From assembly GCA_016840025.1 (NCBI GenBank), contig JAEOTF010000261.1:1-54517 (forward strand): DNA of 54,517 nucleotides, read 5' to 3'. The notes beneath the pieces were generated by a model that saw nothing but the letters and a program-made list of their open reading frames with translations, had not been told where the DNA came from and did not search any database. Of the stretch, positions 4,030 to 36,773 are shown in pieces; position 1 is the first letter of the stretch; the number at the start of each line of letters is the position of its first letter. A program made the translations under genes and the position numbers. The DNA comes from Candidatus Hodarchaeota archaeon. Its GTDB lineage: Archaea > Asgardarchaeota > Heimdallarchaeia > Hodarchaeales > YT1-039.

Positions 4030-4356
4030 ATGTCATCATCTTTCCGTTCTATCATTGATACACTTGATGTAATTCTGATTATTCTAACATACTTACTCCT
4101 TGGCTTTCTTATCTCATTTGCTTCTGATTGGGAAGGTATTCTCCTAATAGGAGTTCTCCTATGGTTTTTTGATATGCTCCCAGAATGGTTGAGCTATATT
4201 TTCATCGTTGGTTTTCTTGTTGATTTTATTGAGGAAGATTTAGCCCTACAGATCTTTACTGTTCTACTTGGAATCTGGATTCTACTTCTTTGTGCAAATA
4301 TAGCATTAAGAATCCTGGAATACCTTTCAAATAAAGAAAACGCAGAGAATTTTTGA
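4030..4356 (+). CDS. Small three-helix membrane protein, unknown function
   Basis: A 108-residue protein with three hydrophobic stretches (about residues 12-32, 36-65 and 73-97), separated by short acidic loops (SDWEG, DFIEEDL). The C-terminus is short and polar. A clear ribosome site GAAGGAG sits about seven bases before the ATG, supporting a real gene. No family recognised. It is 277 bases upstream of the first actin-family gene on the same strand, but the repeat-rich gap suggests separate transcription. Confidence 0.65.
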   Translation: MSSSFRSIIDTLDVILIILTYLLLGFLISFASDWEGILLIGVLLWFFDMLPEWLSYIFIVGFLVDFIEEDLALQIFTVLLGIWILLLCANIALRILEYLSNKENAENF

Positions 4357-4461
4357 ATCCAGCATTATTAGGGATATTTGAACCAAAATTGGTAATTATA
4401 AGTTAACAACTCCAAATAATAGTTGTAATTGAAGAAATATATTCCAAAAGGGGATTAAGTT

Positions 4462-4578
4462 GGGTTTGTTATAAATTTCATATTGATATCGATGATATGA
4501 AACCTAAAAACAGTAATCATTAAATGTTAGGTTTATAACATATCAGACGAAAACTTCAACACATGAGGTTAAAAACCT
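4462..4578 (+). promoter_or_regulatory. Repeat-rich control region upstream of the actin-family cassette
   Basis: Three inverted repeats sit within 117 bases. TTTCATAT (4476-4483) pairs with ATATGAAA (4495-4502). AAACCTAA (4500-4507) pairs with TTAGGTTT (4527-4534). AGGTT (4566-4570) pairs with AACCT (4574-4578). The core GGTT(T) occurs five times, counting both strands (4463, 4500, 4529, 4566, 4574). TTTATAA at about 4532 could double as a TATA box. A ribosome site AAGGAG lies about 11 bases before the ATG of the next gene. It could be an operator or a centromere-like site bound by a protein from the cassette. Confidence 0.45.
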
Positions 4579-4632
4579 TAATAATAGATCTAAAGTAATT
4601 ATCACATTAATCCAGAAGGAGTTTCTTCTAAA

Positions 4633-5907
4633 ATGTCAATGAAAGGTATCCACGGCATTCTTGTTTGTGATGTAGGTACAAGTGATGTGAAAGCAAGTGT
4701 ATATTATCTAGAGGGTAGCGCAGCTAATCAATGGGAATCTAACTTGACTTTCAAGAACGAAATCACTAAAATAACCGACAAAGATGTTAGACAGATGCAA
4801 GCGACGGGACAAGAAGTTCCTGAAATATTCCGATTTGAAGGAAAGCATAAATTATTCACACCTTTGGAGTTGGGCAAGCTAACGATGTTCGGAACTCCGA
4901 TGGATGTCTTGGATGGAGCTACACATACGGATACTAGCTACTTACATGCGTCATACATGCATATATGCCAGAAATTAACTCAAGAATTTAAGATGGCGAA
5001 TAAAGTAGGATTTGGATTAGATAGCAAACCTGAAAGACGAAATTGGGGTGTTTTCTCGACAATAACACAGTTTGATCCCAAAAGAAAAGTCAAAGAAGAA
5101 GAATTACTCAATCTCCATAAAAAAATCATCACGGATTTAGGTTTCGGATATTTTTATGCTCGTAACCAAACAACTTTAAGTGTTATTGCTAACGGAACGA
5201 AAATCAAACAAACCAATCCCGAAATGGACTGCATTTTAATCGATGTGGGAGGTGGGGATATGAAAGGATTTGGATTAGTCACGGAAGTTATTTCTGGAAG
5301 ACCCCAAATGGTTCCTTTACCGGGTTCTATGCGACGAGAGACTCTTGCAGGTAAACGAATCGAAGATTTTTTTGTGGAGAATGCTAGAGAACTTGTCAAA
5401 CGTGGTGGAGAACTACGAAATACTACACCTTTCCTAAATTACTTGTATGGTAAGTCAGGTAGAGCTTGTGGTGTCAAATGTCATGACACCTCGAAGAATG
5501 ACTTTCTTAAGAATCCACCTCCAATGAAAATACTTCGAGAAGAAGTTAAAGTACCTGAAAAGTTGCGTGCTACACCAACAATGTTATTTGAACCTGAAAA
5601 CTATAATTTACCCGATCTAAACGGTATACAGACGGTTTGTGATCAAATTATCGAAGAAGCAGAGGTGCAAGGGTCATCTGCGGAGAGCTTATTGAAATGT
5701 GTGCTTCTTGTCGGGGGCACCGTTAAGTATCATAATGTTGTTCCACGTATGGAAGAAGAATTACGAAAATTATATTCGGGAATTCGGGACATTAATGTCG
5801 TTTTAGCGGATGTTCCTAAATATTCTGTAGTAGTAGGTCAGCGATTAACTCTGAACACTGTTTTACGGAAGCAGAGATTCTTTGATGTATTTGAAAAGAT
5901 TAATTAG
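4633..5907 (+). CDS. Divergent actin-family ATPase (first copy)
   Basis: A 424-residue actin-fold protein. Phosphate-1 loop CDVGTSDVK at 12-20, phosphate-2 loop LIDVGGGDMKG at 202-212, and adenosine motif LVGGTVKYHNVVPRMEEE at 359-376. Between them, NQTTLSVIANG (178-188) aligns with the QAVLSLYASG segment of eukaryotic actin, placing Q179 at actin's hydrolysis-promoting Gln137. LAGKRIEDFF (238-247) matches actin's LAGRDLTDYL. LFEPENY (318-324) sits where actin has LFQPSF. This ties it to the actin/Arp/crenactin family rather than Hsp70 or FtsA. It is far from the very actin-like Lokiactins. It probably polymerises with ATP. It heads a one-strand cassette with a coiled-coil protein 58 bases downstream. 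Partner role inferred from gene order. Confidence 0.88.
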   Translation: MSMKGIHGILVCDVGTSDVKASVYYLEGSAANQWESNLTFKNEITKITDKDVRQMQATGQEVPEIFRFEGKHKLFTPLELGKLTMFGTPMDVLDGATHTDTSYLHASYMHICQKLTQEFKMANKVGFGLDSKPERRNWGVFSTITQFDPKRKVKEEELLNLHKKIITDLGFGYFYARNQTTLSVIANGTKIKQTNPEMDCILIDVGGGDMKGFGLVTEVISGRPQMVPLPGSMRRETLAGKRIEDFFVENARELVKRGGELRNTTPFLNYLYGKSGRACGVKCHDTSKNDFLKNPPPMKILREEVKVPEKLRATPTMLFEPENYNLPDLNGIQTVCDQIIEEAEVQGSSAESLLKCVLLVGGTVKYHNVVPRMEEELRKLYSGIRDINVVLADVPKYSVVVGQRLTLNTVLRKQRFFDVFEKIN

Positions 5908-5965
5908 GTAAAAGGCATTTGTCGGCAGATTCTTCATGAATATTAAATAAAATGTGGTATAAACT

Positions 5966-6415
5966 ATGGCTCAACAAAATGAAGTTCGTGGCAGACGTGT
6001 GGGCCCTCCTGAAAGAGAACGAAAAACACCTTCTCAACTATCAGCTTTGATTGGGATACCGCTCATGGAATACGTGGACGAATTACCAGGTAAAAATCGC
6101 ACTGAAAAAGTTAAAAGGATCATTGTTGAACATAGAGCTTCTAAACATGTACGCCAACGTATGGATCAGCATGACCGAATCCTTAGCCAAATTCGAGATA
6201 GAATGAACGATTTAACGACAACTCTTAGCAAATTGATGGAAAACGTTTCTCAAATTGAGAATAGATTAGCATCTGGGCAGTTCGCAGTAGTAGCTGCGGG
6301 ACAACCAGTAAGTGGAACACCTGCTCCTGCGACAGCTACTGGAACAACTTCAAGAGAAGTAGGAATGAGCGGAGAAACTGCTGAAGAAGAAATGGAATTT
6401 CTAATGGGATTATAG
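5966..6415 (+). CDS. Small possible RHH-like + coiled-coil protein, candidate actin adaptor
   Basis: A 149-residue protein without a recognised family. Residues 1-23 are basic and polar. Residues 24-57 (SALIGIPLMEYVDELPGKNR, then TEKVKRIIVEH) read like a short strand, helix, GKNR turn and second helix, the layout of a ribbon-helix-helix DNA-binding motif. Residues 60-103 are a heptad-like coiled coil (RMDQHDRILSQIRDRMNDL...). Residues 104-135 are a flexible Ala/Pro/Thr/Gly linker, and the end is an acidic peptide EEEMEFLMGL. An acidic/hydrophobic C-terminal tip is a plausible filament-binding peptide, as in ParR-type adaptors. No ribosome site is evident; it sits 58 bases after the actin-family gene. 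The RHH reading is an inference from pattern only. Confidence 0.65.
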   Translation: MAQQNEVRGRRVGPPERERKTPSQLSALIGIPLMEYVDELPGKNRTEKVKRIIVEHRASKHVRQRMDQHDRILSQIRDRMNDLTTTLSKLMENVSQIENRLASGQFAVVAAGQPVSGTPAPATATGTTSREVGMSGETAEEEMEFLMGL

Positions 6416-6431
6416 GAGAGTTGTATCAAAG

Positions 6432-6872
6432 ATGGCTAAAAAGAAAACAAAATCCAAAAAACCACCTAGATTGGACGGACTCAGGCTGGTTGAAGAAGAA
6501 GTTAACAAATTGTTACAAAAATTGACAGAAAGTAATATCTGGAAACAAGAAAACATCGATAATGTTGCGTGGGTTTTTAGAGAACCGGTTGTAGGAGCTT
6601 CAAAAGAAGAGTCACATTCTGTTTTAAGCAAAGAAGTATTGCATATCGAACGTAAAAAACTAGCTGATGGATCTGTTCAAGAAATTTTCCGTACAACAAG
6701 GGTTGTATATCTAACTATACTAAATGATCAATCGGACAGGTATAAACTAAGATTCATCGTCCAAGATAAGAATAGTTATGACACAGGAACCATTCGAGAT
6801 ATGTTTACCCGTAAAAATGCAGATAGTCTTCGTGATGAAGTCCTTAACGCATTAGGCCACTTAGTTAGTTGA
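6432..6872 (+). CDS. 146-aa conserved-looking unknown in the actin cassette
   Basis: No family recognised. The N-terminus is strongly basic (KKKTKSKKPP), followed by a helix-prone stretch (about 16-40) and a beta-rich middle (EIFRTTRVVYLTILND, YKLRFIVQD). The C-terminus ends with a helix (SLRDEVLNALGHLVS). The size and alternating strands suggest a compact alpha/beta fold. Only 16 bases separate it from the coiled-coil gene, with AGGAG overlapping that gene's stop, so the two are co-translated. It could bind nucleic acid through the Lys-rich tail, or the filament; both are guesses. Confidence 0.6.
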   Translation: MAKKKTKSKKPPRLDGLRLVEEEVNKLLQKLTESNIWKQENIDNVAWVFREPVVGASKEESHSVLSKEVLHIERKKLADGSVQEIFRTTRVVYLTILNDQSDRYKLRFIVQDKNSYDTGTIRDMFTRKNADSLRDEVLNALGHLVS

Positions 6873-6893
6873 TAACAATATAGATAATCAGGG

Positions 6894-6913
6894 GTTGGTA
6901 AATATCTACCAAC
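6894..6913 (+). promoter_or_regulatory. Perfect inverted repeat before the second actin-family gene
   Basis: GTTGGTA (6894-6900) and TACCAAC (6907-6913) flank AATATC, in the 107-base gap between the 146-aa gene and the second actin-family gene. AT-rich sequence follows, so this could be an operator for a second promoter or a weak hairpin. A T-rich run lies at about 6941-6950 and a GCGGAGAAG ribosome site sits before the GTG start. Confidence 0.4.
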
Positions 6914-6979
6914 TTTAATAACAATAAGAGACCAATTAGTTCTTTTTTCTTAACTTAAGCAAAAAAGCGGAGAAGCGTC

Positions 6980-8350
6980 GTGAATCCGGAAGATCTTCAT
7001 GGAATAATAGCTACCGATGTTGGAGACTCCTACATCAAAGTAGCTGTCTATTACCTCAAGGGGTGGCACCAAGACCATTGGGATGATAATATCATTATTC
7101 CCAATGAAATTTCTTCTGTTATACCTAAAGGAATTAGAAAAAGTAAACTACAACTCCGTTTTTTTATGGATCTTCCTTTCTCTTCTAAAGATAATCTGAA
7201 TGATTCAGCTGTTTCTCCTGTTGATAACTCACTACAACCTAAATCAGATACACCGATTGAATCCAATCAGATGCAAGAAATGTATGATCAACTCCTTGGA
7301 ACTTTGCGTACTCATTTCAACATTGAAGCACCTTCCCTAAAAAAATTCAGCCGTTTTACTCAACCTATTGAAAGTTTGTATATATGGAGTGTCTATGAGT
7401 ATCTGTGTCGGAAAGTAAGTGAAAAATTAGCAATAGGTGAAAAATTGGAAGGATGGGGTCTAGATGCTCCTTTTGAACGACGATATTGGGCAATTTTTAT
7501 AGCTGTGCCACATCATGACCTTAAACGTGACCAAAAGCGTACTAATGAGATACATCGCTGGCTTCTAAAGCAATTGGGGTTTGGTTTCTATGTTGTTAGA
7601 GAGCAACACATTCTTAGTGCATATGCTCATTTTCCGAAAATACAATCTAAATTACCTTGTCCTGGGTTTCTTATTGATGTTGGTGGCGAATCCATAGTCA
7701 CAACAGCTTTGAACTTCTCAAATAATCCTGTAAGTTCAATACGTTTTTTTAAACCTGCAATAATTTCTCAAACAACTTATAACGGAAAAGCAGCTGGAAA
7801 AAAAGTCGAAAAACGGTATATGGAAGCTAATGAGGCCCATTTTGAAGAACTTTTCCCTAATCTTGTGGCAGCGTTGGAAAGGTTTCTTTTTGAAGGTGGT
7901 TCTATATTCCGATGTCATGATTCAACAACACACCAAGATTCCCAGTTGTTTTCTGTTAAAGTAGGGGATATTGAACATCAACTTCCAGAACGAGCGAAAT
8001 GGGTGCCTACATTGATATTTGAACCCGAAAATTATGAATTACAAGATTATAATTCTCTTCAACAGGTTATGAACGCAACAATACAGGCTACGGAATTGGC
8101 AGCAGGCTATGATATTGAAAAAATCTTAAAAATAGTGATTATATCGGGTGGGGGTGCCAAATTTCCAAGCTTTAACGAGCGTCTTAAGGAAGAAATTCAT
8201 GCACGTTATGCAGTAAATGAAGTCGAGTTTATAACAACTCATAATCCCCAATTTAGTGTTATTGAAGGTGAAAAGAAATTAGTTGAGGCTTTTCTTCCCC
8301 CTCAATCCTTTAAAAGGCTATTTAGCTTTCTAAAACCTCGATGGGTTTAG
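6980..8350 (+). CDS. Divergent actin-family ATPase (second, larger copy)
   Basis: A 456-residue paralogue of the upstream actin-family protein. Phosphate-1 ATDVGDSYIK (11-20), phosphate-2 LIDVGGESIV (231-240), adenosine motif IISGGGAKFPSFNERLKEE (387-405). EQHILSAYAH (208-217) keeps the Gln (Q209) equivalent to actin Gln137. Both copies share FERRYW/PERRNW, an RCHD/KCHD motif and IFEPENYELQDYN, showing one family and a duplication. This copy has a polar Ser/Asp/Gln-rich insertion at about 67-100 and lacks the LAGKRIEDFF stretch, so its filament contacts should differ. The start is GTG with GGAGAAG just upstream. It may copolymerise with, cap or regulate the first copy. Confidence 0.85.
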   Translation: MNPEDLHGIIATDVGDSYIKVAVYYLKGWHQDHWDDNIIIPNEISSVIPKGIRKSKLQLRFFMDLPFSSKDNLNDSAVSPVDNSLQPKSDTPIESNQMQEMYDQLLGTLRTHFNIEAPSLKKFSRFTQPIESLYIWSVYEYLCRKVSEKLAIGEKLEGWGLDAPFERRYWAIFIAVPHHDLKRDQKRTNEIHRWLLKQLGFGFYVVREQHILSAYAHFPKIQSKLPCPGFLIDVGGESIVTTALNFSNNPVSSIRFFKPAIISQTTYNGKAAGKKVEKRYMEANEAHFEELFPNLVAALERFLFEGGSIFRCHDSTTHQDSQLFSVKVGDIEHQLPERAKWVPTLIFEPENYELQDYNSLQQVMNATIQATELAAGYDIEKILKIVIISGGGAKFPSFNERLKEEIHARYAVNEVEFITTHNPQFSVIEGEKKLVEAFLPPQSFKRLFSFLKPRWV

Positions 8351-8359
8351 GCGATTTAA

Positions 8360-8908
8360 TTGAGCGATAAAAATCAAGTTAACCAAGAATTAATCGATGG
8401 ATTTATTGTAGCATTATTTTCAGATAATGGTCCTACTGTCATTTTTAATGATTCACCATTGAATGAGTCGGTAGCATTTAACCTTGTAATCAGTATGTGG
8501 ATCGTCTTGGGAGGGAGCGCGATCGCTGATAGACAATTATGGGGACCATTACCTATTCCTGACGAAGACCTTGGAGAGTACAATACTCTTGCCTTTGTTT
8601 TTTCTATAGCTGCTATGAGAACAAATGAAGATGGTAAGTTGATTTTAACAACACGAGATGATAGGTTAGCAGTAAGCGGACGTCCCATCTCATTTTGGCT
8701 TATCTTCCACAGCAAGAAAAAACGAGAAATCATGAACGCACAAGGAATACTTCAGGAATTTCTTGAGAAAAACCTCAGTAATTTTAAAAATGAGGATGAT
8801 CTAACAGTAGAAAATATGCAAAGAATAAAACAGAAATTAGATCGGATTAAACACATAGATGCCTCGGAGCTATTAAGTAAATTCAAGAAAATCATTGGAT
8901 CAACATAG
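8360..8908 (+). CDS. Longin/roadblock-like protein with helical tail, unknown
   Basis: A 182-residue protein starting with TTG nine bases after the second actin-family gene, so translationally coupled. Residues 10-120 have an alternating strand pattern (IDGFIVALFSDNGPTVIFND, then NTLAFVFSIAAM, then GRPISFWLIF) that resembles the longin/roadblock-type small alpha-beta domains common in Asgard archaea. Residues 125-182 are a charged helical region (KKREIMNAQGILQEFLEKNL, then a second amphipathic helix). Homology is not certain by eye. Its position as the last gene of the cassette suggests a membrane or GTPase-linked partner for the actin-like proteins. Confidence 0.6.
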   Translation: MSDKNQVNQELIDGFIVALFSDNGPTVIFNDSPLNESVAFNLVISMWIVLGGSAIADRQLWGPLPIPDEDLGEYNTLAFVFSIAAMRTNEDGKLILTTRDDRLAVSGRPISFWLIFHSKKKREIMNAQGILQEFLEKNLSNFKNEDDLTVENMQRIKQKLDRIKHIDASELLSKFKKIIGST

Positions 8909-8939
8909 GCTACATAGCATTCTCCAGAAAATTTCCACA

Positions 8940-10526
8940 TCAAGAAGAAGATTCTATTACTTTTTTGAATTTAGTATACAAATCTTCTCGTTTGGATGGT
9001 AATAGTGCGATTTTGGATGGTTTTTTGTCAGAAAGTTTGGTTAACAGATCAGCATATAATTTAGCAAAACTTTTCTTATCAATTCCTGGTTTAGGTCGAT
9101 AAGCTTTAGAACGAAATAGGAATTCGGAGGGAAAACCTTCATGTGGTTCTGCTGGGTTAATTCCACATGTCAATTCTTGTAAATATAATTTCTCCACATG
9201 CGGTAATTCAAGAATTTTCCTTGCATAATTGGCAGATTCAGATAATAAGGAAATAACTAAACTTCGTTTGATATAATCATAGGATTGTTCATAATCTTCA
9301 ATTGTATTGATTGTTAAAAAGGGAAAAGGTAGCTCTAATCCAAATAAGCGTGAATTTTTTCCATTTTCACAGAGAAAAACACTCGGTAATAAATAATAAA
9401 CATCATTTAAGACTTGTAAGCGTGAGGTTTCTCTTACTTTTTCTACAAGATCAATATCTCTTCCTTTATTGCTTTCTATAAACCTATTGATCTTCTTAGC
9501 GAGATTATTATCCACAAATGCTGCTAATTTCGCTTTTTCCGAAAAAATATCTTGGGGAATGATATTCGCTAGTTCTACTGCTATCTCAAATGCAATATCT
9601 TCTGCAACTGTTTCTGCATTTTTTCCAACTACTAAAAGACTTGAAGCATTGATACAGCTCTTCCCACCATCAAATAGGGTTGATCCAATGATCATATCAC
9701 AAATATCTGACGAATCATACTGTTTCACATAATTTGTATCCAAAATAATTTTCGATCTACCCGGCCCATATGTTTTTATTTTTGTTTTGTTGGCATAGCG
9801 CCTTGTCGTTGTTTCATCCCCAAATATGATGCCTAAATCCGAATTCATCAAAAATGAAGCTATGAATTTATGATTCATCGGTAAGTAATGTAATGCTTCT
9901 TTTGGTAAACCTGCTTTGTATAATGCTTGAATATATCTATAGGCAAATAAGCCTTCTCTAATAGAAGGTCGCACGAGCGTAGGAAATTTCATAGCAGCCA
10001 TGATCGCCCATACAGTATTTACTCCAGGATGGTTGCTAGGTGCTACTACAGCTAGATTTTTACCACGTCTAATCCAACCATACATTAAATACCCTTTCTG
10101 AACAATGTGGGTATCATAAATCGAAACCGAATTATTGGGACTTAAAATTTCTAAAATTTCTCGTATGTTTTTCATAGATTGAGAGAATGGAATAAAGCTA
10201 TTTCTTACGAAAATGATGGGCATGCCTGTGGTTGCCGTAATAAACTGTTGTGTCTCCTCAAGGCTAATTTCTGTACTTATTCCGAGGCTTTGTGTTGATG
10301 TAAAAATATCACTCGCTTCAATAATGATTTCTAGGAAATTATCAATTGTTATCTCAGAAATATAATGATATCCTTTTGTGTTTGTATCTTTTAAAGATTG
10401 ATTAATAATTATTTCGGGAGCTTGGGAATAAGATATTTGAAAATGATTGAGGGCATTTGGTGTAGCTCTTTTTGACGTAAAATATTCTTTTCCTCCACGA
10501 AGTAGAGGAATTTCAAGTTCAATCAT
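8940..10526 (-). CDS. Aldehyde dehydrogenase superfamily protein
   Basis: A 528-residue ALDH-fold enzyme. AVVAPSNHPGVNTVW (about 160-175) is the cofactor-binding strand and loop, and GGKSCINASSLLV (about 290-302) carries the catalytic Cys with its GxxC context. KTYGPGRSKIIL precedes it. The N-terminal 130 residues are divergent from ordinary ALDHs, and the protein has some flavour of acyl-CoA reductases (LuxC-like), which use the same fold to reduce acyl groups to aldehydes. The substrate cannot be told. Convergent with the actin cassette (32-base gap). A 20-base palindrome lies about 136 bases upstream of its ATG. Confidence 0.78.
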   Translation of the reverse strand: MIELEIPLLRGGKEYFTSKRATPNALNHFQISYSQAPEIIINQSLKDTNTKGYHYISEITIDNFLEIIIEASDIFTSTQSLGISTEISLEETQQFITATTGMPIIFVRNSFIPFSQSMKNIREILEILSPNNSVSIYDTHIVQKGYLMYGWIRRGKNLAVVAPSNHPGVNTVWAIMAAMKFPTLVRPSIREGLFAYRYIQALYKAGLPKEALHYLPMNHKFIASFLMNSDLGIIFGDETTTRRYANKTKIKTYGPGRSKIILDTNYVKQYDSSDICDMIIGSTLFDGGKSCINASSLLVVGKNAETVAEDIAFEIAVELANIIPQDIFSEKAKLAAFVDNNLAKKINRFIESNKGRDIDLVEKVRETSRLQVLNDVYYLLPSVFLCENGKNSRLFGLELPFPFLTINTIEDYEQSYDYIKRSLVISLLSESANYARKILELPHVEKLYLQELTCGINPAEPHEGFPSEFLFRSKAYRPKPGIDKKSFAKLYADLLTKLSDKKPSKIALLPSKREDLYTKFKKVIESSS

Positions 10527-10826: not shown

Positions 10827-11393
10827 TCACTTATTTTCCATTTGTTTGTCTAATATTTTCTTTCCTAGAGTGAGAAATGCTTGATTAACATTTTCTCCAG
10901 TAAGAGCGGAGGTTTCATAGTATTCCACTTCAAAACCAAATCGTTTTGTTATTTCATTTAATTTTGAAGCATATTTTTGCCCCTGTTCTGCAGAAATTCC
11001 TGTAGGTGACTGACTACGAATATCTAATTTATTACCTATCAAAAGAAACGGCACTACAGTCCTAAGAGAGCCTTGTAGTTCATTTAACCAACGTCCACAA
11101 TTATTAAATGTATCGGCACGGGTGAGATCGAAAACAAGCAGTGCTCCACGGGCGCCTTTGTAAAATCCGCTCCGAATCTGACCAAAACGTGGCTGCCCCG
11201 CTACATCCCAGATTTGGTAGGTAATTTCGATGTCATGCTCTGGAATTATTTCTCTTTTTACAGAAAAGTCAGCGCCTATAGTCATTATGTAGTTCGAATC
11301 AAGTCTTTCTCCCATATATCGGCGTCGTAGGGTTGTTTTACCAACTGCTCCGTCTCCAATAAGAAGAGTTTTTATGAAATATCTGCCGCTCAA
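10827..11393 (-). CDS. Ras/Rab-family small GTPase
   Basis: A 188-residue small GTPase with all G boxes: GDGAVGKTTL (13-22), switch-I Thr38 in TIGADF, IWDVAGQPRF (61-70), GNKLD (120-124) and ETSALTG (160-166). The WDVAGQ form with Gln67 (Ras Gln61) is intact, so GTP hydrolysis is expected. Closest in style to Rab/Arl-type GTPases of Asgard archaea. There is no C-terminal Cys for prenylation; the tail is KKILDKQMENK. The start is TTG with AAAGGAG about ten bases upstream. The nearest downstream gene is the ALDH, 300 bases away, so it is probably monocistronic. Confidence 0.92.
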   Translation of the reverse strand: MSGRYFIKTLLIGDGAVGKTTLRRRYMGERLDSNYIMTIGADFSVKREIIPEHDIEITYQIWDVAGQPRFGQIRSGFYKGARGALLVFDLTRADTFNNCGRWLNELQGSLRTVVPFLLIGNKLDIRSQSPTGISAEQGQKYASKLNEITKRFGFEVEYYETSALTGENVNQAFLTLGKKILDKQMENK

Positions 11394-14763: not shown

Positions 14764-15867
14764 ATGCTAGAAATCGAGCTTATTATTATCGTTATAACAT
14801 CAATCATCTTTTTTGTAAGTTCTCTACTAATATTTCATCAATCTAAAGGAAGCCCTATCCTTGAAATGAAATTTTTAGGTATGACTTTTACTTTATTTAC
14901 AATTAGTATTGTTCTTAATTCCCCTCTTCCATTACAACCTACTACCATCAATCAGTCAATAGTTCAAGCTTGTCATCGGCTAGGAACTTTCTGTGGTCAG
15001 ATCGGAATACTTTTATTTTGTTTCAGTATAATTTTACCTAATTTCAAGCCTAATTATCGTTCGATCGCTTTAAACACAACAATAACCACAGTAAATATCG
15101 CTGCAGCCTTTATCAATCTAATAACATTAGAGAATAAAGTCATAGATGACTCTATCATAATCCAATTTCATCCCTTAGGCATTTTTTTTATGGCTTTAAG
15201 CTTTTTCTTGTTAGTTGTAGTTGTACGAAAAAGGATAATCGAAGTATCTAAGATAATTAAACAAAAAGAAAGTCCGTTTACAACAACACGTTCCCTTTCT
15301 ATCTTATCGATTCTCTTAACACTAACTTTAACGTTTATGATACTCTCCAGGGTTGATATGATTCATGGAGTACCTACATATGCTTGGTTAATCCCGGCTT
15401 CTCTAACAGCTTTCTATTTCTCCTTTAGTTTCACTAAGGACAAAACCTTTTTCTTTGTTACTCCTGCACAGCTAGATACCATCATAATTACCGATAAAAA
15501 ATCTGGAGTGACTCTCTTTTCTTATGCGTTTAATAAGGAAGCACTAATGCATGATTTAGTAGGATCAGTCTTCTCAGCGCTTAAAACATCAATTAAAGAA
15601 TTAATCAAGAGCAATAGCGATACGGAATTAAATCAAATTAGTTTTGGAGACAAATTTGTATTATTAGCTCCTGGGAAATGGACCACAACTCTAATGATAG
15701 TATCGGAGAATAACTTGATCACTCAAAACGTTTGTAAATATTTAACTAGAGAATTCGAGTCACATTTCGAGCAATTTCTTATCAGAGAAAATAAATCTAT
15801 AAATACGAGTAGTTATGAAGTATTTTCTGCTGTTATTGAAGAAGTTCGTCAATACATTCCTTTATGA
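14764..15867 (+). CDS. Multi-pass membrane protein with a longin/roadblock-like C-terminal domain
   Basis: A 367-residue protein. Residues 1-235 contain about seven hydrophobic helices (starting LEIELIIIVITSIIFFV). Residues 240-365 are soluble: AQLDTIIITDKKSGVTLFSY, then a helix, GDKFVLLAPGKWTTTLMIVS, then another helix, the strand-strand-helix-strand order of longin/roadblock small-GTPase-associated domains. Asgard genomes encode many such domains, and membrane tethering would place a GTPase platform on the inner face. The C-terminal call is by pattern only. A TTG-started membrane protein follows 17 bases later. Confidence 0.65.
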   Translation: MLEIELIIIVITSIIFFVSSLLIFHQSKGSPILEMKFLGMTFTLFTISIVLNSPLPLQPTTINQSIVQACHRLGTFCGQIGILLFCFSIILPNFKPNYRSIALNTTITTVNIAAAFINLITLENKVIDDSIIIQFHPLGIFFMALSFFLLVVVVRKRIIEVSKIIKQKESPFTTTRSLSILSILLTLTLTFMILSRVDMIHGVPTYAWLIPASLTAFYFSFSFTKDKTFFFVTPAQLDTIIITDKKSGVTLFSYAFNKEALMHDLVGSVFSALKTSIKELIKSNSDTELNQISFGDKFVLLAPGKWTTTLMIVSENNLITQNVCKYLTREFESHFEQFLIRENKSINTSSYEVFSAVIEEVRQYIPL

Positions 15868-23124: not shown

Positions 23125-24120
23125 TCATTTTCTTCTTCTTTCTGAAAATTTCGGTTTCCATTCTCTCCAATTTGCCCATTTTTGGCTTTTCTTCTCATCT
23201 AAACTCGGTCTTGTATTAAGATAGACATCTATAAGTCTTGAAAATGCCATTTGAAGATTATCAATATCTCTTGTGCCTACTAAGAGAATTGTATTAGCTT
23301 CCAACAAAGTAAAAGCTATATTATAGAGGGATAAAGAAATGATGTACATTTCTGTATCGAATACCTGTTCTTTTGGTTGTTTCATACCCTTCTGTATATC
23401 AGATTTATGTTGCAGTAAGTAATTAATCAGATCTTTTGAAGAAGGTAGATCTAGCTCTTCATCAAGTGTAATATCCACTATTTGCATACCCGTTATTGTT
23501 AGGACTCTTATCAACAATAAGTCTAATTCTTGACCTATTTTCATGAATTCTTCTTTAATTATACTAATTCTAGACCATAATTGGCCTAAAAAAGTTGCTG
23601 TGGCATTTAATAGAGAGGAATCAAATACTGATGTTCGAAAAACTTTAAATTCATTGGTATTATTGTTCAATAAGGTAAAAATGTCTTTTCGATCTGTACT
23701 AATGTCCCATTTATGAAGAAAGACTACATTGATTGCATCTGGAGAGTATCTCTTTACAGTGTTGAAGATTCGTTGGACATTCTCATTATAAGGATTCTCT
23801 TGTTTTAATATTGAAGGGATGTCAATTACGAAGATACAACCATTTAAATTACGAAAAATCATTTCATGTTCATATTGAGTGCTTTGACGATCAACTATAG
23901 CTTCAAAATCTTGTTCAAAAAATATAAATTCTTCTCCAAGAAGAAGTAAATGTAATGGTGATTTATTAGGATTTAATACACTGTTTTTATCCTTAGTTTG
24001 GTCATTCTTAGGCATCTTCCCGCTAATTTCAGAAATAATACTTGATTTTCCGCTTTGTGCAGGTCCAATAACAAGAATCCGCCGTACATCTTCTATCATG
24101 GGACTTACGTTATTACTCAT
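23125..24120 (-). CDS. Rag/Gtr-like GTPase with degenerate switch II
   Basis: A 331-residue protein. P-loop VIGPAQSGKSSI (17-28). The middle follows eukaryotic RagA closely: EHEMIFRNLNGCIFVIDIPS, then RYSPDAINVVFLHKWD with the Rag-type HKxD box (136-139), then FKVFRTSVFDSSL, matching RagA's FRTSIWDETL. The expected DCGGQ of switch II is replaced by FFEQDFEAIVD (67-77), so nucleotide hydrolysis is doubtful and it may be a nucleotide-locked partner. Residues 185-310 (IIKEEFMKIGQELDLLLIRV onward) would be the roadblock-type dimerisation domain of Rag proteins. Rag GTPases control TORC1 in eukaryotes; the archaeal role is unknown. Monocistronic by spacing. Confidence 0.8.
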   Translation of the reverse strand: MSNNVSPMIEDVRRILVIGPAQSGKSSIISEISGKMPKNDQTKDKNSVLNPNKSPLHLLLLGEEFIFFEQDFEAIVDRQSTQYEHEMIFRNLNGCIFVIDIPSILKQENPYNENVQRIFNTVKRYSPDAINVVFLHKWDISTDRKDIFTLLNNNTNEFKVFRTSVFDSSLLNATATFLGQLWSRISIIKEEFMKIGQELDLLLIRVLTITGMQIVDITLDEELDLPSSKDLINYLLQHKSDIQKGMKQPKEQVFDTEMYIISLSLYNIAFTLLEANTILLVGTRDIDNLQMAFSRLIDVYLNTRPSLDEKKSQKWANWREWKPKFSERRRK

Positions 24121-24745: not shown

Positions 24746-26464
24746 ATGATGAGTCCCAAAACTAACACTAGAAGGTCTATTAAGATTCTAATCCTACTCA
24801 TTTTGATTAATATGTTCTTGTTGCTGCATTCTTCGACCACTCAGGAAGGAAGTGTTCACCCTGAGCGACCCTTAAGGCTATCAGTGAGTTCTCCAACCGT
24901 GCAAAGTACTTTGTCTTATGCTCCCCACGACCCAATTGAAGTTTCTAATGATATAGAATTGGCTGCAGTTGCTGTAAATGGCTCTGGAAAAGAGAACGAT
25001 CCCTATGTTTTAGAGGGATGGAACATTACCGCACCTGATTCTGATGGAATCTCTGTTATTGGAACAACAGCTCATTTTATGATACAGAATTGCTTGGTGG
25101 AAGCTGGAAGTATAGGAATTTACATTGCTAATATCGCTTCTAGAACAGTGAATATCTTCAACAATTCCATCCAAAATAGTTTCATTGGCATCTTATTACA
25201 TAATTCTGGAAATACGATCCTCAGCAGCAATATCATCCAAAATAATACCCGCGGTATCGTTCTAAGAGATTCTGGAAATTCAATCCTGAGTAATAACACT
25301 TTTCTTGAATGTGGTCTCGGATTTTATGATTTTGATACTTCTCAGGAGATATATCTATCATATTCAATAGAGAATAACTGGGTGAATGGACGTCCTTTAG
25401 GTTGGTTTGCAAATAAGAAAAATCTGACTCTCAGTACTTCTTATGGACAACTATTTCTGATCAATTGCACCAACGTTGTGGTGAAGGACCAAAATTGTTC
25501 TAATATAGAAAGGGGAATAACTCTCTATTTTAGTTCTTTCTGTCAAGTAATTGATAGTCATTTTAACCGAAATCAATTTGAGGGCATCTATCTTCACCAC
25601 TCGGGGAATGCGACTCTCCACAACAATTCCTACCAGAATAATAATGCGGGTATCTTTCTTCTATATTCTGGGAATGCGACTCTCCACAACAATTCCTGTC
25701 AGAATAATAATAACGAGGGCATCTTTCTTTGGTATTCTGGGAATGCGACCCTCAACAACAATAGTTGTGCCAAAAATGGTGGCACGGGTATCTCTCTGCA
25801 AGATTCTGGAAATACAACTCTAAGTAAAAACATCTGTTCCCAAAATCTAGGCAGTGGCATAAGTCTTTACCAATCAGGGAATGCAACCCTCAACAACAAT
25901 ACATCTATCAACAATGATGGTGATGGTATCCGTCTTGACGATTCGAGTAATGCAATCCTTAGCAATAATACCTGCTCCCAAAATCTGGGCAAGGGCATCA
26001 ATTTAGTGAGTTTTGAGAATGCTGTCCTCAGCAACAATACATGCTCCCTAAATCATGGCACAGGCATCTACCTTGTACTTTCTGATGAGTGTTCAATCAT
26101 TTGGAATATAGTAGATTTTAATAGAGATTATGGAGTGTATCTCGAACGGTCAAATGAGAACATTGTTCATCACAATACTTTTATCGCTAATGGACTCTAT
26201 TATGATCGACCATCTCAAGCATATGATGATGGCTCCAATAATCAATGGTACGATTCTTCTACCCTTGAAGGGAACTATTGGTCGGATTATACAGGTTCGG
26301 GTGACTATGAAATCGACGGAAACGCGGAGACTACTGACCCCTATCCCTTGGATGAATTTGGTAATCCTTTAGATGAATATGGTTTCCAAGCTATTTACAC
26401 GTTGGGATTACTCCTAGTTGTTGTTATCCATACTATTCACAAGCGTTCTAAGCATTTGTGTTAG
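24746..26464 (+). CDS. Secreted parallel beta-helix (NosD/CASH-type) surface protein
   Basis: A 572-residue protein with a signal peptide (about 10-35, IKILILLILINMFLLLHSS). LAAVAVNGSGKENDPYVLEG is the opening of NosD/CASH beta-helix proteins. Right-handed helix coils follow from about 90 to 490, including seven near-identical 22-23-residue coils (GNATLxNNSxxxN, then GIxL). NLWY-like text YDSSTLEGNYWSDYTGSGDY, also found in the other beta-helix protein here, closes the domain. One C-terminal helix (about 550-565) anchors it. Such folds usually bind or cleave carbohydrates, or act as adhesins; no catalytic residues are evident. Confidence 0.88.
   Translation: MMSPKTNTRRSIKILILLILINMFLLLHSSTTQEGSVHPERPLRLSVSSPTVQSTLSYAPHDPIEVSNDIELAAVAVNGSGKENDPYVLEGWNITAPDSDGISVIGTTAHFMIQNCLVEAGSIGIYIANIASRTVNIFNNSIQNSFIGILLHNSGNTILSSNIIQNNTRGIVLRDSGNSILSNNTFLECGLGFYDFDTSQEIYLSYSIENNWVNGRPLGWFANKKNLTLSTSYGQLFLINCTNVVVKDQNCSNIERGITLYFSSFCQVIDSHFNRNQFEGIYLHHSGNATLHNNSYQNNNAGIFLLYSGNATLHNNSCQNNNNEGIFLWYSGNATLNNNSCAKNGGTGISLQDSGNTTLSKNICSQNLGSGISLYQSGNATLNNNTSINNDGDGIRLDDSSNAILSNNTCSQNLGKGINLVSFENAVLSNNTCSLNHGTGIYLVLSDECSIIWNIVDFNRDYGVYLERSNENIVHHNTFIANGLYYDRPSQAYDDGSNNQWYDSSTLEGNYWSDYTGSGDYEIDGNAETTDPYPLDEFGNPLDEYGFQAIYTLGLLLVVVIHTIHKRSKHLC
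25604..26083 (+). repeat. Seven 66-69-bp tandem repeats in the beta-helix gene
   Basis: Units start at 25604, 25670, 25739, 25808, 25877, 25946 and 26015. Each encodes one beta-helix coil, GNATL(H/N)NNS...GI.L..S. The first three are nearly identical at DNA level (GGGAATGCGACTCTCCACAA twice), suggesting recent slippage or unequal recombination. Copy number probably varies between strains. Confidence 0.8.
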
Positions 26465-29873: not shown

Positions 29874-31970
29874 ATGAAAATAAGTTTGAAAATTGGGATG
29901 ATAATTTTCCTTCTTTGTATTTTTACTTTTAATTCGCTGATAATTCAACCAACGCGTGTAAATGGATATGATCTTTGCCGGCATAAGTTTGAGTTTGAGC
30001 TATTGACATTAGTTGGTGATGATGCAGGATACATTGCTGGAGCATTGATTGCTTCTTATTTAGGAGCTGTCGGAATGAAAATAAACCAAATACACCAAGA
30101 ATCTGCGGTGATGTATCCTAAACTAGAGGATTTCGGGTACTATGAGAATGCCTCTTCTCATGAGCTAGGTGCTGAGCCCTGGAATACTGTCCGACCGTAT
30201 GATCTCATTTACATGCCTTCACCTAGTTCACCATCCACCCCCACCGATTTAAGTATGCTACACAGCGGGGAAGATTATCCTGGTGGAAAGAATGAATGGG
30301 GGTTCCATAATGCCACCATGGATGCAAATATTGACTTCATGTTCAATATATCGCTTGATATTGTACCCCTCTACCTCAACAGGCAACAGGCAATTTGTGC
30401 AGAAGAAGTGCCTTATGTGCACGTAATTTACCAAAAAGATATGATGCCCATCCGTAAGGGAATAGATGGATTAGTTTATACTCCCCATGGAGTAATCTCT
30501 TGGAAGAACCCACTAACTCCCCTGAACATACATAACACTACAAACCTTCCCGCTACTCGTAATGGTACTGAATGGGTGATGCGATACTTCAAATTTGTTA
30601 TAGATGGAGATCCAGGTGGGCCGCTTTATTATGAAATTAGTAAAAATCGATCAGCTTTCGTGGATTCTCTACTCTGGGAGCCCCTTGTGCAAACTAATGA
30701 GACAGGGGGATTTATTCCTTGGTTAGCTGAGTCATACGAAATTTCCGAGGACGGAATGATCTATAATTTCACTCTCCGGGACAACATCTACTGGCACGAT
30801 GGAACCCTCATGATGCCTGAGGATATCGTCTTCTCGTATAACTATATCAATGACGCGTGGGATGCAGGCGAAGCTATTTATAATCCCTGTGCTGACGTAA
30901 CAAGCTGTATTATTCTTGAGGATGGCATCATTCAGTTTATGATGGAAGAATTGGATCCCTGGGCGATTCCAAATATCTTCACCGAGTTGAAAATCTTCCC
31001 AAAACATATTTTCGAGACAGTGCCTTACAATGATGTCACTTGGCATGACCTAACAAATATGACAACTAAGATCGGCTCAGGCCCCTACAAATTTCAAGAA
31101 GTTTCCATGTGGGCCCCTCCTACGTGGTGGACTTTCGTACGAAACCCCAACTACTGGTTTACGGGTACAAATCCCCATTGTATAACCAGTTTGGAGCCTA
31201 TATATTCTGAGGGTGGGAACAATCCTTCCATTACCCAATATCCTCGTATGGAACGCTTTACGATTCGTGTTATTACTGATGTTGATTCTACTATTACCGC
31301 ACTACGAAATGGGGAAGTAGACCTCTGCCGATACATATGGTTTGATGTTGCTAATGCTGCTCAGGAATATCCTGATGAAATCAAAATGAATACTATTCCG
31401 AGTACTTGGCGGAAAATCCTGTGGATCAACAACAATGTGTACCCACTAAGCGATAAACGTGTTCGGCAAGCGATAGCATATGCAATTGACTATGATGCGA
31501 TTGTAGAAGCATCAGAAGGAAATAAAGCGATTGCTCTGTACAATAATTATCTTCCAATTGAGTACTATGGAACATGGCACAACCCTGCCAGCGACGTCTA
31601 CGACTATAATCCAGCAAGAGCTTATGCCATTCTTGAAGATGCGGGGCATCTAGACACCGATGGTGATGGAGTAAGGGAAGCAGATTCTATTCATACTCCT
31701 ATTTGTGGTGGAGATATGACATGCTCTTCTACAACAGGGGATTATTTTTCTTCTACTGGTTATGATAGTTCTTATACAACCTACCCCTTCTCAGAAGACC
31801 CTGACTCCACCCTATTCCAAAATAGTACAAGCACTCCAGATAATACACGCGCAAGACACCTTGCTATTTTTGACTCGGGATTTTTTATCTTTCTAATATG
31901 TTCTATAACGGCATTAGCAGGAGGAATGGCCCTAGCGTATCTCTATGAGAAAACGCGAAAGTTGACTTGA
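29874..31970 (+). CDS. Membrane-anchored oligopeptide-type solute-binding protein (copy 1)
   Basis: A 698-residue family 5 extracellular solute-binding protein (DppA/OppA type). Signal peptide at about 1-30. Family signatures are LAESYEISEDGMIYNFTLRD, WHDGTLMMPEDIVFSYNYI and VRQAIAYAIDYDAIVEAS. After a Thr/Ser-rich stem, one helix (FFIFLICSITALAGGMALAY) and a KTRK tail anchor it to the membrane. It would capture peptides or other oligomers outside the cell. No permease or ATPase gene lies in the window. The following gene is a tandem copy. A separate N-terminal extension (ELLTLVGDDAGYIAG) is shared by both copies. Confidence 0.88.
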   Translation: MKISLKIGMIIFLLCIFTFNSLIIQPTRVNGYDLCRHKFEFELLTLVGDDAGYIAGALIASYLGAVGMKINQIHQESAVMYPKLEDFGYYENASSHELGAEPWNTVRPYDLIYMPSPSSPSTPTDLSMLHSGEDYPGGKNEWGFHNATMDANIDFMFNISLDIVPLYLNRQQAICAEEVPYVHVIYQKDMMPIRKGIDGLVYTPHGVISWKNPLTPLNIHNTTNLPATRNGTEWVMRYFKFVIDGDPGGPLYYEISKNRSAFVDSLLWEPLVQTNETGGFIPWLAESYEISEDGMIYNFTLRDNIYWHDGTLMMPEDIVFSYNYINDAWDAGEAIYNPCADVTSCIILEDGIIQFMMEELDPWAIPNIFTELKIFPKHIFETVPYNDVTWHDLTNMTTKIGSGPYKFQEVSMWAPPTWWTFVRNPNYWFTGTNPHCITSLEPIYSEGGNNPSITQYPRMERFTIRVITDVDSTITALRNGEVDLCRYIWFDVANAAQEYPDEIKMNTIPSTWRKILWINNNVYPLSDKRVRQAIAYAIDYDAIVEASEGNKAIALYNNYLPIEYYGTWHNPASDVYDYNPARAYAILEDAGHLDTDGDGVREADSIHTPICGGDMTCSSTTGDYFSSTGYDSSYTTYPFSEDPDSTLFQNSTSTPDNTRARHLAIFDSGFFIFLICSITALAGGMALAYLYEKTRKLT

Positions 31971-32007
31971 ATACATGTCCATATTAATCCGCTGTGCAGG
32001 TGAAAAA

Positions 32008-34014
32008 ATGAAAACACTAAAAAAGATCAATATCCTCGTAGTAGCTTTCATCTTATGGGGATTGTCTATTAATTCGACAATGATTCAACCAACACAAGTA
32101 AATGGATGGGATCTAGGACGAATAAACTTTGAATTTGAACTACTTACTCTTATGGGTGATGATGCAGGATTTATTGCGGGAGAGTTGATTACATCTTACC
32201 TTGACGCAATCGGAATGAAAATAAACCATCTTCATCAGGAATCAGCTGTATTATATCCTAAACTTGATAATTATGGATATTATGAGAATGCAACAGCCTG
32301 CTCTCTCGGTGTAGATCCTGTAAACACTATTCGACCCTATGACTTCGTCTACCATGGTCTAAGCAGTGCACCAATCACACCGACCGACCTAAATATGTTA
32401 CGTACAGCGCATGACTATCCAGGTGGTGGTAATGAATTTGGATTCCACAACTCCACCATGGACATAGCTATTAGCAGGATGTATAGCAGCCATATCGATA
32501 ATGTTGCTTACTATATTAACTGGCAACAAGCCATTGCTGTAGAGGAAGTACCTTACATACACGTTTTATATCAGAAAGATGTGATCCCTGTCCGTAAGGG
32601 TATAGATGGCTTAGTCTACACTCCTCATGGCTTAATCTCCTGGAAAAACCCCTTAACACCGCTGAACATTCATAACACCACTAACCTACCAGAAAGTCGA
32701 GAGGGGTTGGAGTGTGTTATGCGATACTTTGCCCCAGTTCGGGATGGCAATCCTGATGGAATGCTTTACTACGAGATTTTGACTGGTCGAACAGCTTTCG
32801 TGGACTGTTTACTCTGGGAGTGTCTTATCCAAGCCAATGAAACCGGAGGTTATATTCCCTGGCTTGCTGAATCCTATTCAATTTCTGAAGATGGATTGAT
32901 CTTCAACTTTACTCTTCGAGATGGGATTTTATGGCATGATGGTACTCCTATGACTCCTGAGGACGTTAAATTCTCTTATGATTACATCAAGAGCGCTGAA
33001 GGAACAGCTAGATATTCTCCTGTTGTTGATATAGAAAGTTGTGAAATTCTATCGGATGGAACAATACAATTCATTAGTTCCAAAATTGACACTTGGGCGA
33101 TATCTTATTGTTGGACAGAACTCAAAATCTTCCCGAAGCATATCTTTGAGACCGTACCTTATAATGATCCTTCTTGGCATGATCTAACCAATATGACTAC
33201 GAAAATTGGCTCAGGCCCATATCAGTTTGACAGCGTAGAGACACAATCGCCACCCAGCTGGTGGAAATTCGTTCGTAATGACAATTACTGGTTCACTGGT
33301 GCAAACACCAATTGTTTTACTAACCTTGAACCCATCTATTCTGAGGGGGGCAGTGATCATACAATTATTCAATATCCTAGGATGGAATGCTTTACCATCC
33401 GTGTCATCACTAGTCCTGACGCAACAGTTGCAGCCTTGCGAAATGGTGAAGTGGATCTACTTAGATATATGTGGTCCCCGATCACTATTGCTGCTCAAGA
33501 ATACCCCGATGACATCAAAATGGTATCTACACCCAGTGTTTGGCGGAAACTTCTGTGGATCAATAATAATGTTTATCCACTGAGCAATAAACATGTGCGA
33601 CAAGCTATTGCTTATGCTATAGATTATGACTCTATATGTGAAGCATCTGAGGGGGGATTTGCTATCCCTCTGTATAATAGATATTTACCTCCAGAAATCT
33701 ATGGGACTTGGTATAATTTTGCCACAGATGTTTATAGCTACAATGTGGATAGAGCTAACGAGATCCTAGATAATCTAGGCTTCTACGATTATGATGGAGA
33801 TGGAGTCCGGGATACTGGACATCCTTGGCCAACATCATGGCCAACTACAATGCTAACACAGTTAACTTCAAAACGAGAAAACGACGTAACAAAAACAATA
33901 ACAGAGACTAGTACATCCCCACGTTTTATAGCAGGATTCACAGTTGTAGAGTCTTTATTGTTCAGTATTTGTACTATTGGAATCTTAAAATTACATAAGA
34001 AACGCAAGATTTAG
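32008..34014 (+). CDS. Membrane-anchored oligopeptide-type solute-binding protein (copy 2)
   Basis: A paralogue of the preceding gene, about 668 residues. The ATG at 32008 is chosen over 31975 because it follows AGGTGA at good spacing and gives a proper signal peptide (KTLKKINILVVAFILWGL) matching copy 1. LAESYSISEDGLIFNFTLRD and VRQAIAYAIDYDSICEAS repeat the family signatures. It has fewer stem residues and an anchor helix FTVVESLLFSICTIGIL before LHKKRKI. It starts 37 bases after copy 1, so one operon from a tandem duplication. Ligand differences are likely but not readable. Confidence 0.86.
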   Translation: MKTLKKINILVVAFILWGLSINSTMIQPTQVNGWDLGRINFEFELLTLMGDDAGFIAGELITSYLDAIGMKINHLHQESAVLYPKLDNYGYYENATACSLGVDPVNTIRPYDFVYHGLSSAPITPTDLNMLRTAHDYPGGGNEFGFHNSTMDIAISRMYSSHIDNVAYYINWQQAIAVEEVPYIHVLYQKDVIPVRKGIDGLVYTPHGLISWKNPLTPLNIHNTTNLPESREGLECVMRYFAPVRDGNPDGMLYYEILTGRTAFVDCLLWECLIQANETGGYIPWLAESYSISEDGLIFNFTLRDGILWHDGTPMTPEDVKFSYDYIKSAEGTARYSPVVDIESCEILSDGTIQFISSKIDTWAISYCWTELKIFPKHIFETVPYNDPSWHDLTNMTTKIGSGPYQFDSVETQSPPSWWKFVRNDNYWFTGANTNCFTNLEPIYSEGGSDHTIIQYPRMECFTIRVITSPDATVAALRNGEVDLLRYMWSPITIAAQEYPDDIKMVSTPSVWRKLLWINNNVYPLSNKHVRQAIAYAIDYDSICEASEGGFAIPLYNRYLPPEIYGTWYNFATDVYSYNVDRANEILDNLGFYDYDGDGVRDTGHPWPTSWPTTMLTQLTSKRENDVTKTITETSTSPRFIAGFTVVESLLFSICTIGILKLHKKRKI

Positions 34015-35930: not shown

Positions 35931-36773
35931 ATGGCTATTCGGCTTTTTTTGCTCATAGACTCCTATTCTGGCATAGGAGAGGCTATTGCTAGGGATCCTT
36001 CGATCAAAATCAAACCTGTTCTTATATCTGCGATGATCTCTGCAATAGAAAGTTATATTGAGCAAGGACTCCATCAACATGTTAAATACACTCAATTTAT
36101 CCTCGGAGGGTGGCGAGTTATAGTCATAGCAGCCCCTGAATTAGGTGAACATCACCAGTTTGTGGTTTTTCAAGATATCTGGGATTCCTTGGAATATACC
36201 CATTTAAAAGCACAAGCAATAAATCGTCTTGTCCAACCTTATGTCTCTGGGATTCGGAAACTCCCCCCTGAGATCGCTAAGCAAGCTAATGATATTGTTA
36301 CTTTTTCCCAGAAATTCCCTCTTAATATCATGAATGAATCGGATGAATATATTTTACAACAAATTAAAACTTTAAGAGCGGATAGTATCGAAGTTTTGGA
36401 TCTTCTTGTAGCTGATGTGGATGAAGGTATCGTCTTAGATTTTATTCCAGGACCTGATCCATATGATAAAACTCCGAATCAACTTTTTTATGAACTTCTT
36501 TCATCGGTGAATTTTGAGCAAGATCTCTTTCTTGAAACTGAAATTACACCAGAAAGTAAAACTAAAGTTGATTACGAGAAGTTCTCTAAACCTGTATTGG
36601 AAGGGTGGTCCATTAGCCCCATTGGTAAACACTCTGATTTTTATTTAATTGGTTACTTTATTTTTCAACCTCAATCGCGAAAATTACTTAGAAGCACGAT
36701 TCTAGAAGTTAATCAACGGATTAATGAGCAAATAAAACCCCATCTTCCACCTTGGCCTTGGAATTCAGTATGA
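35931..36773 (+). CDS. Two-part longin/roadblock-like protein, unknown
   Basis: A 280-residue protein with no named family recognised. The first half (about 1-105) has strand-helix-strand-strand order: RLFLLIDSYSGIGEAIARDP, a helix (ISAMISAIESYIEQ), then WRVIVIAAPELG and QFVVFQD, then a long helix. This resembles longin/roadblock domains. The second half (about 145-275) again alternates strands and helices (IEVLDLLVADVDEGIVLDFI, then SDFYLIGYFIFQP). GGAGAAGG lies about ten bases before the ATG. It could be an Asgard-specific GTPase-associated scaffold; this is pattern-based only. Confidence 0.6.
   Translation: MAIRLFLLIDSYSGIGEAIARDPSIKIKPVLISAMISAIESYIEQGLHQHVKYTQFILGGWRVIVIAAPELGEHHQFVVFQDIWDSLEYTHLKAQAINRLVQPYVSGIRKLPPEIAKQANDIVTFSQKFPLNIMNESDEYILQQIKTLRADSIEVLDLLVADVDEGIVLDFIPGPDPYDKTPNQLFYELLSSVNFEQDLFLETEITPESKTKVDYEKFSKPVLEGWSISPIGKHSDFYLIGYFIFQPQSRKLLRSTILEVNQRINEQIKPHLPPWPWNSV

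Follow-up and report, generated by a model that had tools for sequence, protein, structure and literature searches.

What kind of machine is encoded when two divergent actin genes sit together with small partner genes in an Asgard archaeon? Of all known archaea, the Asgard group is considered the most closely related to eukaryotes, and research on its actins has centered on Lokiactin and its near kin. Here, we analyze a locus in a 54,517-nucleotide (nt) contig of a Candidatus Hodarchaeota archaeon (JAEOTF010000261.1, assembly GCA_016840025.1), the whole of which we call the window. Five open reading frames (ORFs) span positions 4633 to 8908 on the forward strand, with intergenic gaps of 58, 16, 107, and 9 nt. 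All five lie exactly where an initial annotation of this DNA had placed them, in a single-strand order with short gaps. Two of them encode what appears to be an old duplicate pair of very divergent actins, and one small neighbor is a candidate adaptor. We tentatively favor a module devoted to an actin-type filament and including an adaptor that binds the actin groove; its likeliest job would be positioning or moving DNA relative to the membrane; we put this reading somewhat short of an even chance. The genes, and two segments within them, are as follows.

4633–5907, forward: actin1, ATG start, 424 amino acids (aa); divergent actin-superfamily ATPase, the slow-evolving copy
5966–6415, forward: g2, ATG start, 149 aa; adaptor candidate
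6359–6412 (codons), forward: end of g2, last 18 residues VGMSGETAEEEMEFLMGL; proposed actin-groove-binding helix
6432–6872, forward: g3, ATG start, 146 aa; basic N terminus
6980–8350, forward: actin2, GTG start, 456 aa; divergent actin, the faster-evolving copy
8309–8347 (codons), forward: C-terminal tail of actin2 FKRLFSFLKPRWV; basic and amphipathic, candidate membrane-binding helix
8360–8908, forward: g5, TTG start, 182 aa; 9 nt 3' of actin2

Membership and history of the actin pair

Actin1 and actin2 are homologous over their full length (26% identity, E = 3 × 10−47), and the phosphate and adenosine motifs of the actin fold are present. Each matches the Pfam Actin family (PF00022) under its 27-bit cut-off (actin1, 19.8 bits, E = 3.3 × 10−4; actin2, 24.4 bits, E = 1.3 × 10−5). 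Against PDB sequences, phmmer with actin1 alone gave a best E of 0.031. A joint profile of five family members had actins as its top PDB matches (best E = 6.2 × 10−6), and the best 60 of 141 matches were all actins. The mutual homology and the joint profile bear out the proposal that two actin-fold proteins are encoded here.

Few relatives of the pair were found. A search of 5.8 billion proteins led from actin1 to two related clusters and from actin2 to one. For actin1, 2 of 5978 candidates passed E = 10−3, namely P0001 (92% identity; three members) and P0002 (35%; four members); for actin2, 2 of 5923 passed, the window protein itself and P0004 (60%). Note that large protein searches of this kind depend on shared five-residue words. 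RR-x-W and PT-x-x-FEPE-x-Y are invariant in all five aligned family members, and this part of the private signature claimed earlier stands. Its KCHD/RCHD element varies (KCYD in P0001, RCHF in P0004, absent in P0002), and LFEP is the family version of a general actin motif, which reads LFQP in human actin. The glutamine equivalent to actin Gln137 is kept in both window copies, again as claimed. In actin1, where it is Gln179 (codon 5167–5169), the adenosine motif GGT is there as well; P0004 has Arg at this position. We read the position by motif in the five-member alignment because a wider reference alignment misplaces that loop and leaves the column gapped. Identity of the five members to human β-actin is 16.8 to 22.0% over aligned columns.

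In a nine-row tree of the five family members, human actin, Escherichia coli MreB and FtsA, and plasmid ParM, the family groups by itself with support of 98/98, so that the pair falls outside the four reference groups. The tree is weak on nearest relatives because the branches to ParM, FtsA, and actin are long and because it does not include Lokiactins, Asgard actin-related proteins (ARPs), or crenactin. P0002, which is 35 to 37% identical to actin1, clusters with actin1 and away from actin2 (support 92/94). Provided that the root lies among the references, the duplication predates the split between P0002 and actin1. By this tree, the pair is an old duplication whose copies have evolved at unequal rates. 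Between the window and a Promethearchaeota metagenome-assembled genome (MAG), actin1 shows 0.088 changes per column (92% identity) and actin2 shows 0.60 (about 60 to 61% identity), or roughly seven times faster. The nucleotide site of actin1 is normal-looking, whereas the phosphate loop of actin2 is altered: The equivalent of Ser14 is Asp16 and that of Gly158 is Glu237, with Asp and Glu present in both the window copy and P0004. Set against the normal-looking site of actin1, these changes, along with the Arg of P0004 at the Gln137 position, suggest divided labor.

Gene order implied in a related genome, and the adaptor candidate

Are the small genes regular companions of these actins? When g2, g3, and g5 were searched together as one query, 6 of 1782 candidates came back at E ≤ 1, three of which were the window's own. 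The relatives were P0009 (g2, 74% identity), P0010 (g3, 74%), and P0008 (g2, 81%, on an 803-base contig). In the MAG, consecutive locus tags belong to actin1 (ACFFCQ_12665), g2 (12660), g3 (12655), and actin2 (12650), and each of the four proteins is on a 5838-base contig, presumably one and the same. The order actin1-g2-g3-actin2 is thus implied by tags in one of one related genomes that could be read, a count that does not cover the genomes of P0002 and P0008. Because no relative of g5 was found, we speak of a four-gene core; the five-gene cassette first proposed is supported in its order for these four genes but not for the fifth. Note that the lack of a g5 relative is weak evidence because the simulated power of the pooled query drops near 50% identity (at 50% identity all three proteins still scored better than E = 1, at 40% one of the three did, with the word prefilter left out of the simulation).

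Plasmid, phage, viral, and GTDB sequences added no confirmed relatives. A tblastn search of actin1 against 72,556 plasmid records gave no matches at E = 10, actin2 found nothing better than E = 2 to 3 in 50,697 phage records, and five scans of viral contigs yielded no confirmed relatives. In GTDB contigs, 80 stretches fit the pattern of the actin1 alignment in a low-sensitivity scan and 40 fit that of the neighboring Ras-like GTPase, none of which was confirmed; these scans are weak as evidence of absence because the method requires short exact stretches. Among the titles and abstract openings listed from a collection of 5.39 million open-access papers, we found no description of the arrangement.

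The small protein g2 carries most of the functional argument. An alignment of three sequences has a conserved core, then a variable linker (about residues 110 to 129), and then a near-invariant 18-residue end, VGMSGETAEEEMEFLMGL, of which 16 residues are identical across the three sequences and the final 11 are invariant. AlphaFold2 predicts a long helix at residues 45 to 102 (block mean pLDDT of 80 to 94 for residues 61 to 100; overall mean 65.8) and a short helix at residues 139 to 147 with low pLDDT (about 51 to 55). In PMC5173319, arcadin-2 has the same layout, a core followed by a non-conserved linker and a conserved C-terminal helix; that helix binds a groove of crenactin and depolymerizes its filaments, and ParM:ParR is given as a like case that uses the same actin groove. 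The likeness to ParM-ParR and crenactin-arcadin modules, first drawn from gene arrangement, does not stop at position: In g2, the C-terminal helix is invariant and the linker before it varies. By eye, g2 and the ParRs also have a terminal pattern in common, φ-x-x-[LI]-[IFM], which we set aside as adding little, given that it ends 3 of 43 window ORFs, g2 included.

Does g2 bind DNA? It had been called a possible DNA-binding or coiled-coil protein. In NCBIfam it has a weak match to SMC, at coiled-coil level (E = 0.019; 12.7 bits, where the cut-off is 729). As to DNA binding, there is a hint that the N-terminal domain is a ribbon-helix-helix (RHH) fold. Its pattern resembles the RHH helices of NikR, and a homemade RHH model built from six proteins scores the g2 segment at 5.3 bits. 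Of 500 shuffles, 468 received a score and 3 of these did as well, a comparison that leans toward RHH. Nothing useful toward an RHH assignment came from PDB sequences, NCBIfam, or PHROGs.

A second conserved end is found in actin2. Its last 13 residues, FKRLFSFLKPRWV, are retained at 12 of 13 positions in P0004, compared with 60% identity over the whole protein. Among 15,074 13-mers of the window, this tail alone reaches its own hydrophobicity and D factor jointly (HeliQuest scale and formula). The tail resembles that of E. coli FtsA in position and character, and the FtsA tail is described as a membrane helix (PMC7613929). By its composition, the actin2 tail may likewise be a membrane-binding helix.

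The other two genes say less. The initial annotation's "basic unknown" is an apt description of g3, which has a basic N terminus, a MAG relative at 74% identity (P0010), and no family above chance in Pfam, NCBIfam, or PHROGs (PDB profile search, E = 0.99 at best). Nothing matched in Pfam, NCBIfam, PHROGs, or PDB sequences backs the suggestion that g5 is longin-like. As for a defense system, PADLOC gave weak matches only, among them g5 to "2TM effector" (E = 0.0011, 16.6 bits).

A proposed filament module and its rivals

In the module that we favor, actin1 would be the ATP-driven polymerizing subunit; we infer this role because its nucleotide site is normal-looking and the protein is strongly conserved. 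The g2 protein would dimerize through its long helix, occupy the hydrophobic groove on actin1 with its invariant C-terminal helix in the manner of arcadin-2 on crenactin and ParR on ParM, and carry a cargo, most likely DNA, on its N-terminal domain. Actin2, a degenerate partner whose phosphate loop is altered, would join or cap actin1 filaments, and its basic amphipathic tail may tie these filaments to the membrane. A further component would be supplied by g3. The likeliest DNA cargo would be the chromosome or a low-copy element, positioned or moved relative to the membrane. A bolder version is an undescribed Asgard two-actin machine in which the catalytic actin polymerizes, a degenerate, membrane-docked sister caps or co-assembles with it, and the groove-binding adaptor couples DNA, with the nucleoid moved, or tethered to the membrane, by actin; taken whole, we consider this unlikely. 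The initial annotation's undescribed filament system holds up as far as divergent actins with two partners in one related genome go; any of the roles it offered, in segregating DNA, shaping the cell, or handling membranes, may apply.

Several observations weigh against the DNA-positioning module. AlphaFold2 models actin1 poorly (mean pLDDT 46.7), with Foldseek matches at TM-scores of at most 0.28, and because of this poor model actin1 is not placeable among actin classes such as crenactin and ParM by structure. The N-terminal domain of g2 is modeled with low confidence and without a strand, and no RHH family in Pfam matches g2. With the homemade RHH model, the window's thiolase tops g2 (6.7 against 5.3 to 5.8 bits), which ranks second of 43 ORFs. 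An hhalign comparison of g2 with ParR gave a probability of 1%, although the method is uninformative here because control pairs of known RHH proteins were linked no better. The gene order comes from locus tags, not DNA, in a single related genome, and g3 matches no known family. Actin2 still keeps the glutamine in the window. Its tail could simply be the helix with which actin subdomain 1 normally ends, and the terminal 13-mers of three other window proteins have a greater D factor at lower hydrophobicity. Finally, no centromere-like repeats beyond chance were found near the actin genes. Two noncoding features of the locus are as follows.

4357–4632, forward: A+T-rich region 5' of actin1, 26% GC; probably the promoter region; no array of direct repeats found
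6891–6916, forward: possible hairpin between g3 and actin2, core GTTGGTA-6-TACCAAC; terminator or operator possible, not significant

Direct-repeat counts are under the shuffled means both in the 276 nt 5' of actin1 and in the 107 nt 5' of actin2, and the count for positions 8300 to 9000 is equaled by 5 and 18 of 30 shuffles. This repeat test is weak because real parM loci exceed all shuffles in only two of four cases. All four control loci lie over the shuffled mean; two beat all 30 shuffles, at one word length, and one is matched by at least six shuffles at both word lengths. Promoter and terminator scans gave the same counts as shuffles; sigma-70 promoters are not applicable to archaea. The hairpin (z = −1.40, with 19 of 200 shuffles folding equally well) might divide the module into two transcripts.

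How does the locus compare with known actin systems? The crenactin-arcadin cluster of Thermoproteales likewise places an archaeal actin beside small partners, but it has one actin where this locus has two (arcadin and crenactin were compared by description only), and no Pfam match to an SMC/Rad50-like arcadin-4 was found among the five module proteins and their five nearest neighbors. Salactin is another archaeal actin with a proposed role in DNA partition; it differs in being a single actin with poor synteny (PMC10746226). Its family, PF25229, lists neither window actin, and P0004 reaches 15.6 bits (E = 0.0086) against a cut-off of 27.1. Lokiactin and the Asgard ARPs are Promethearchaeota actins that also occur in several copies per genome (PMC9834061). 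The survey in that paper kept Lokiactin BLASTp matches at E = 10−10 and at least 25% identity; it would probably have missed the present family because of these criteria, with identity to human actin (17 to 22%) standing in as a surrogate for Lokiactin. We have not filed the locus under ParMRC, the arcadin cluster, or FtsA because the evidence for an RHH domain and for a centromere is equivocal, no plasmid link was found, no arcadin-4-like gene was recognized nearby, and there is no FtsA domain.

Among the rival explanations, a membrane-bound cytoskeleton or a division or shape system would dispense with DNA cargo: Filaments of actin1 would be anchored to the membrane by an FtsA- or MreB-like actin2, and g2 would depolymerize or cap them as a regulator of the arcadin-2 kind. 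This is possible, if on the unlikely side. It draws on the basic, FtsA-like tail of actin2, so well kept in P0004, on the linker-plus-helix layout that g2 shares with a depolymerizer (PMC5173319), and on the failure to find centromere repeats. However, actin2 finds no FtsA domain in Pfam or NCBIfam, identity to FtsA is 13 to 14% over aligned columns, and its matches to MreB (E = 0.34, Pfam) and MamK (E = 0.0061 and 15.6 bits, with the cut-off at 400, NCBIfam) are weak. A Pfam scan of 18 window proteins recognized no FtsZ or Cdv gene, and the tail could belong to the actin fold. A strict chromosomal ParMRC segregation system, with actin1 as ParM, g2 as ParR, and a centromere nearby, strikes us as quite unlikely. 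The shared plan is an actin-fold ATPase followed by a small adaptor with a helical C-terminal tail: g2 starts 58 nt 3' of actin1, the MAG tags imply the same order, and in four plasmid loci a partition or stability protein, taken as ParR, follows ParM in this way. The faint RHH signal of g2 points in the same direction, and PMC12270681 reports chromosomal ParMR systems with predicted RHH ParRs, so that plasmid linkage is not strict. Yet this scheme has no place for a second actin or for g3, there is no direct-repeat excess 5' of either actin gene by the weak test above, and identity to ParM is 16 to 18% over aligned columns. Nor is there a plasmid link, as actin1 is unmatched in the plasmid records and its neighbors look chromosomal.

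The pair itself invites another explanation, an obligate heteropolymer of a catalytic and a non-catalytic paralog that would be an actin counterpart of Asgard α/β-tubulin. The adjacency of the two genes, the altered site in one partner, and the age of the duplication all fit, and a Heimdallarchaeales tubulin pair that is operonic and has one non-catalytic partner provides a precedent (PMC13371889). We nevertheless hold it decidedly unlikely: If each copy needed the other, one would expect their rates of evolution to be more alike, yet actin2 is the far faster copy, and the window's actin2 retains its glutamine. The proteins may also form no filament at all and work, together with small regulators, as enzymes or as switches of a chaperone-like kind, which the strong divergence and the presence of sugar kinases and PPX/GppA in the Foldseek list (E = 8 × 10−4 and above) would allow. 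Actins rank first in both the sequence profile and the fold comparison, and actin1 has the adenosine motif GGT together with the glutamine; we regard a non-filament role as improbable. The filament module with a groove-binding adaptor is the reading that we carry forward.

Surroundings and wider meaning

The neighborhood is chromosomal-looking by Pfam, with genes for cysteinyl-tRNA synthetase, a thiolase, a DEAD-box helicase, a solute-binding protein, a RagA-like GTPase (23125–24120, reverse), and a Ras-family GTPase (10827–11393, reverse). The two GTPases agree with an Asgard origin, as do the relatives labeled Promethearchaeota archaeon. ARAGORN found no tRNA genes in the window. On the same strand as the module, and 276 nt 5' of actin1, lies a hydrophobic 108-aa protein (4030–4356, forward) that by eye is probably membrane-spanning; it has a weak match to TraX (E = 0.035, Pfam) and could belong to the module. 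Two further forward-strand proteins (14764–15867 and 35931–36773) have no Pfam match at E = 0.01 and show longin- or roadblock-like stretches by eye. At 29874–31970 and 31975–34014 (forward), similar proteins stand in tandem, the first of them the family 5 solute-binding protein (Pfam) and each seemingly with a terminal membrane anchor (by eye). The proteins at 24746–26464 and 42085–44823 (forward) are repeat-rich and, by eye, probably β-helical and secreted; the latter has an additional run of Asp-rich repeats.

If the filament reading is true, this would be a second actin family, one that is very divergent and has partners of its own, and some Asgard cells would run more than one actin machine. 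In eukaryotes, labor is divided between actin and the Arps; an old pair with one normal and one altered site could inform how duplicated actins come to divide labor in a comparable way. The movement of DNA in archaea is poorly understood, and an actin with an adaptor of this kind would be a candidate for the machinery that carries it out.

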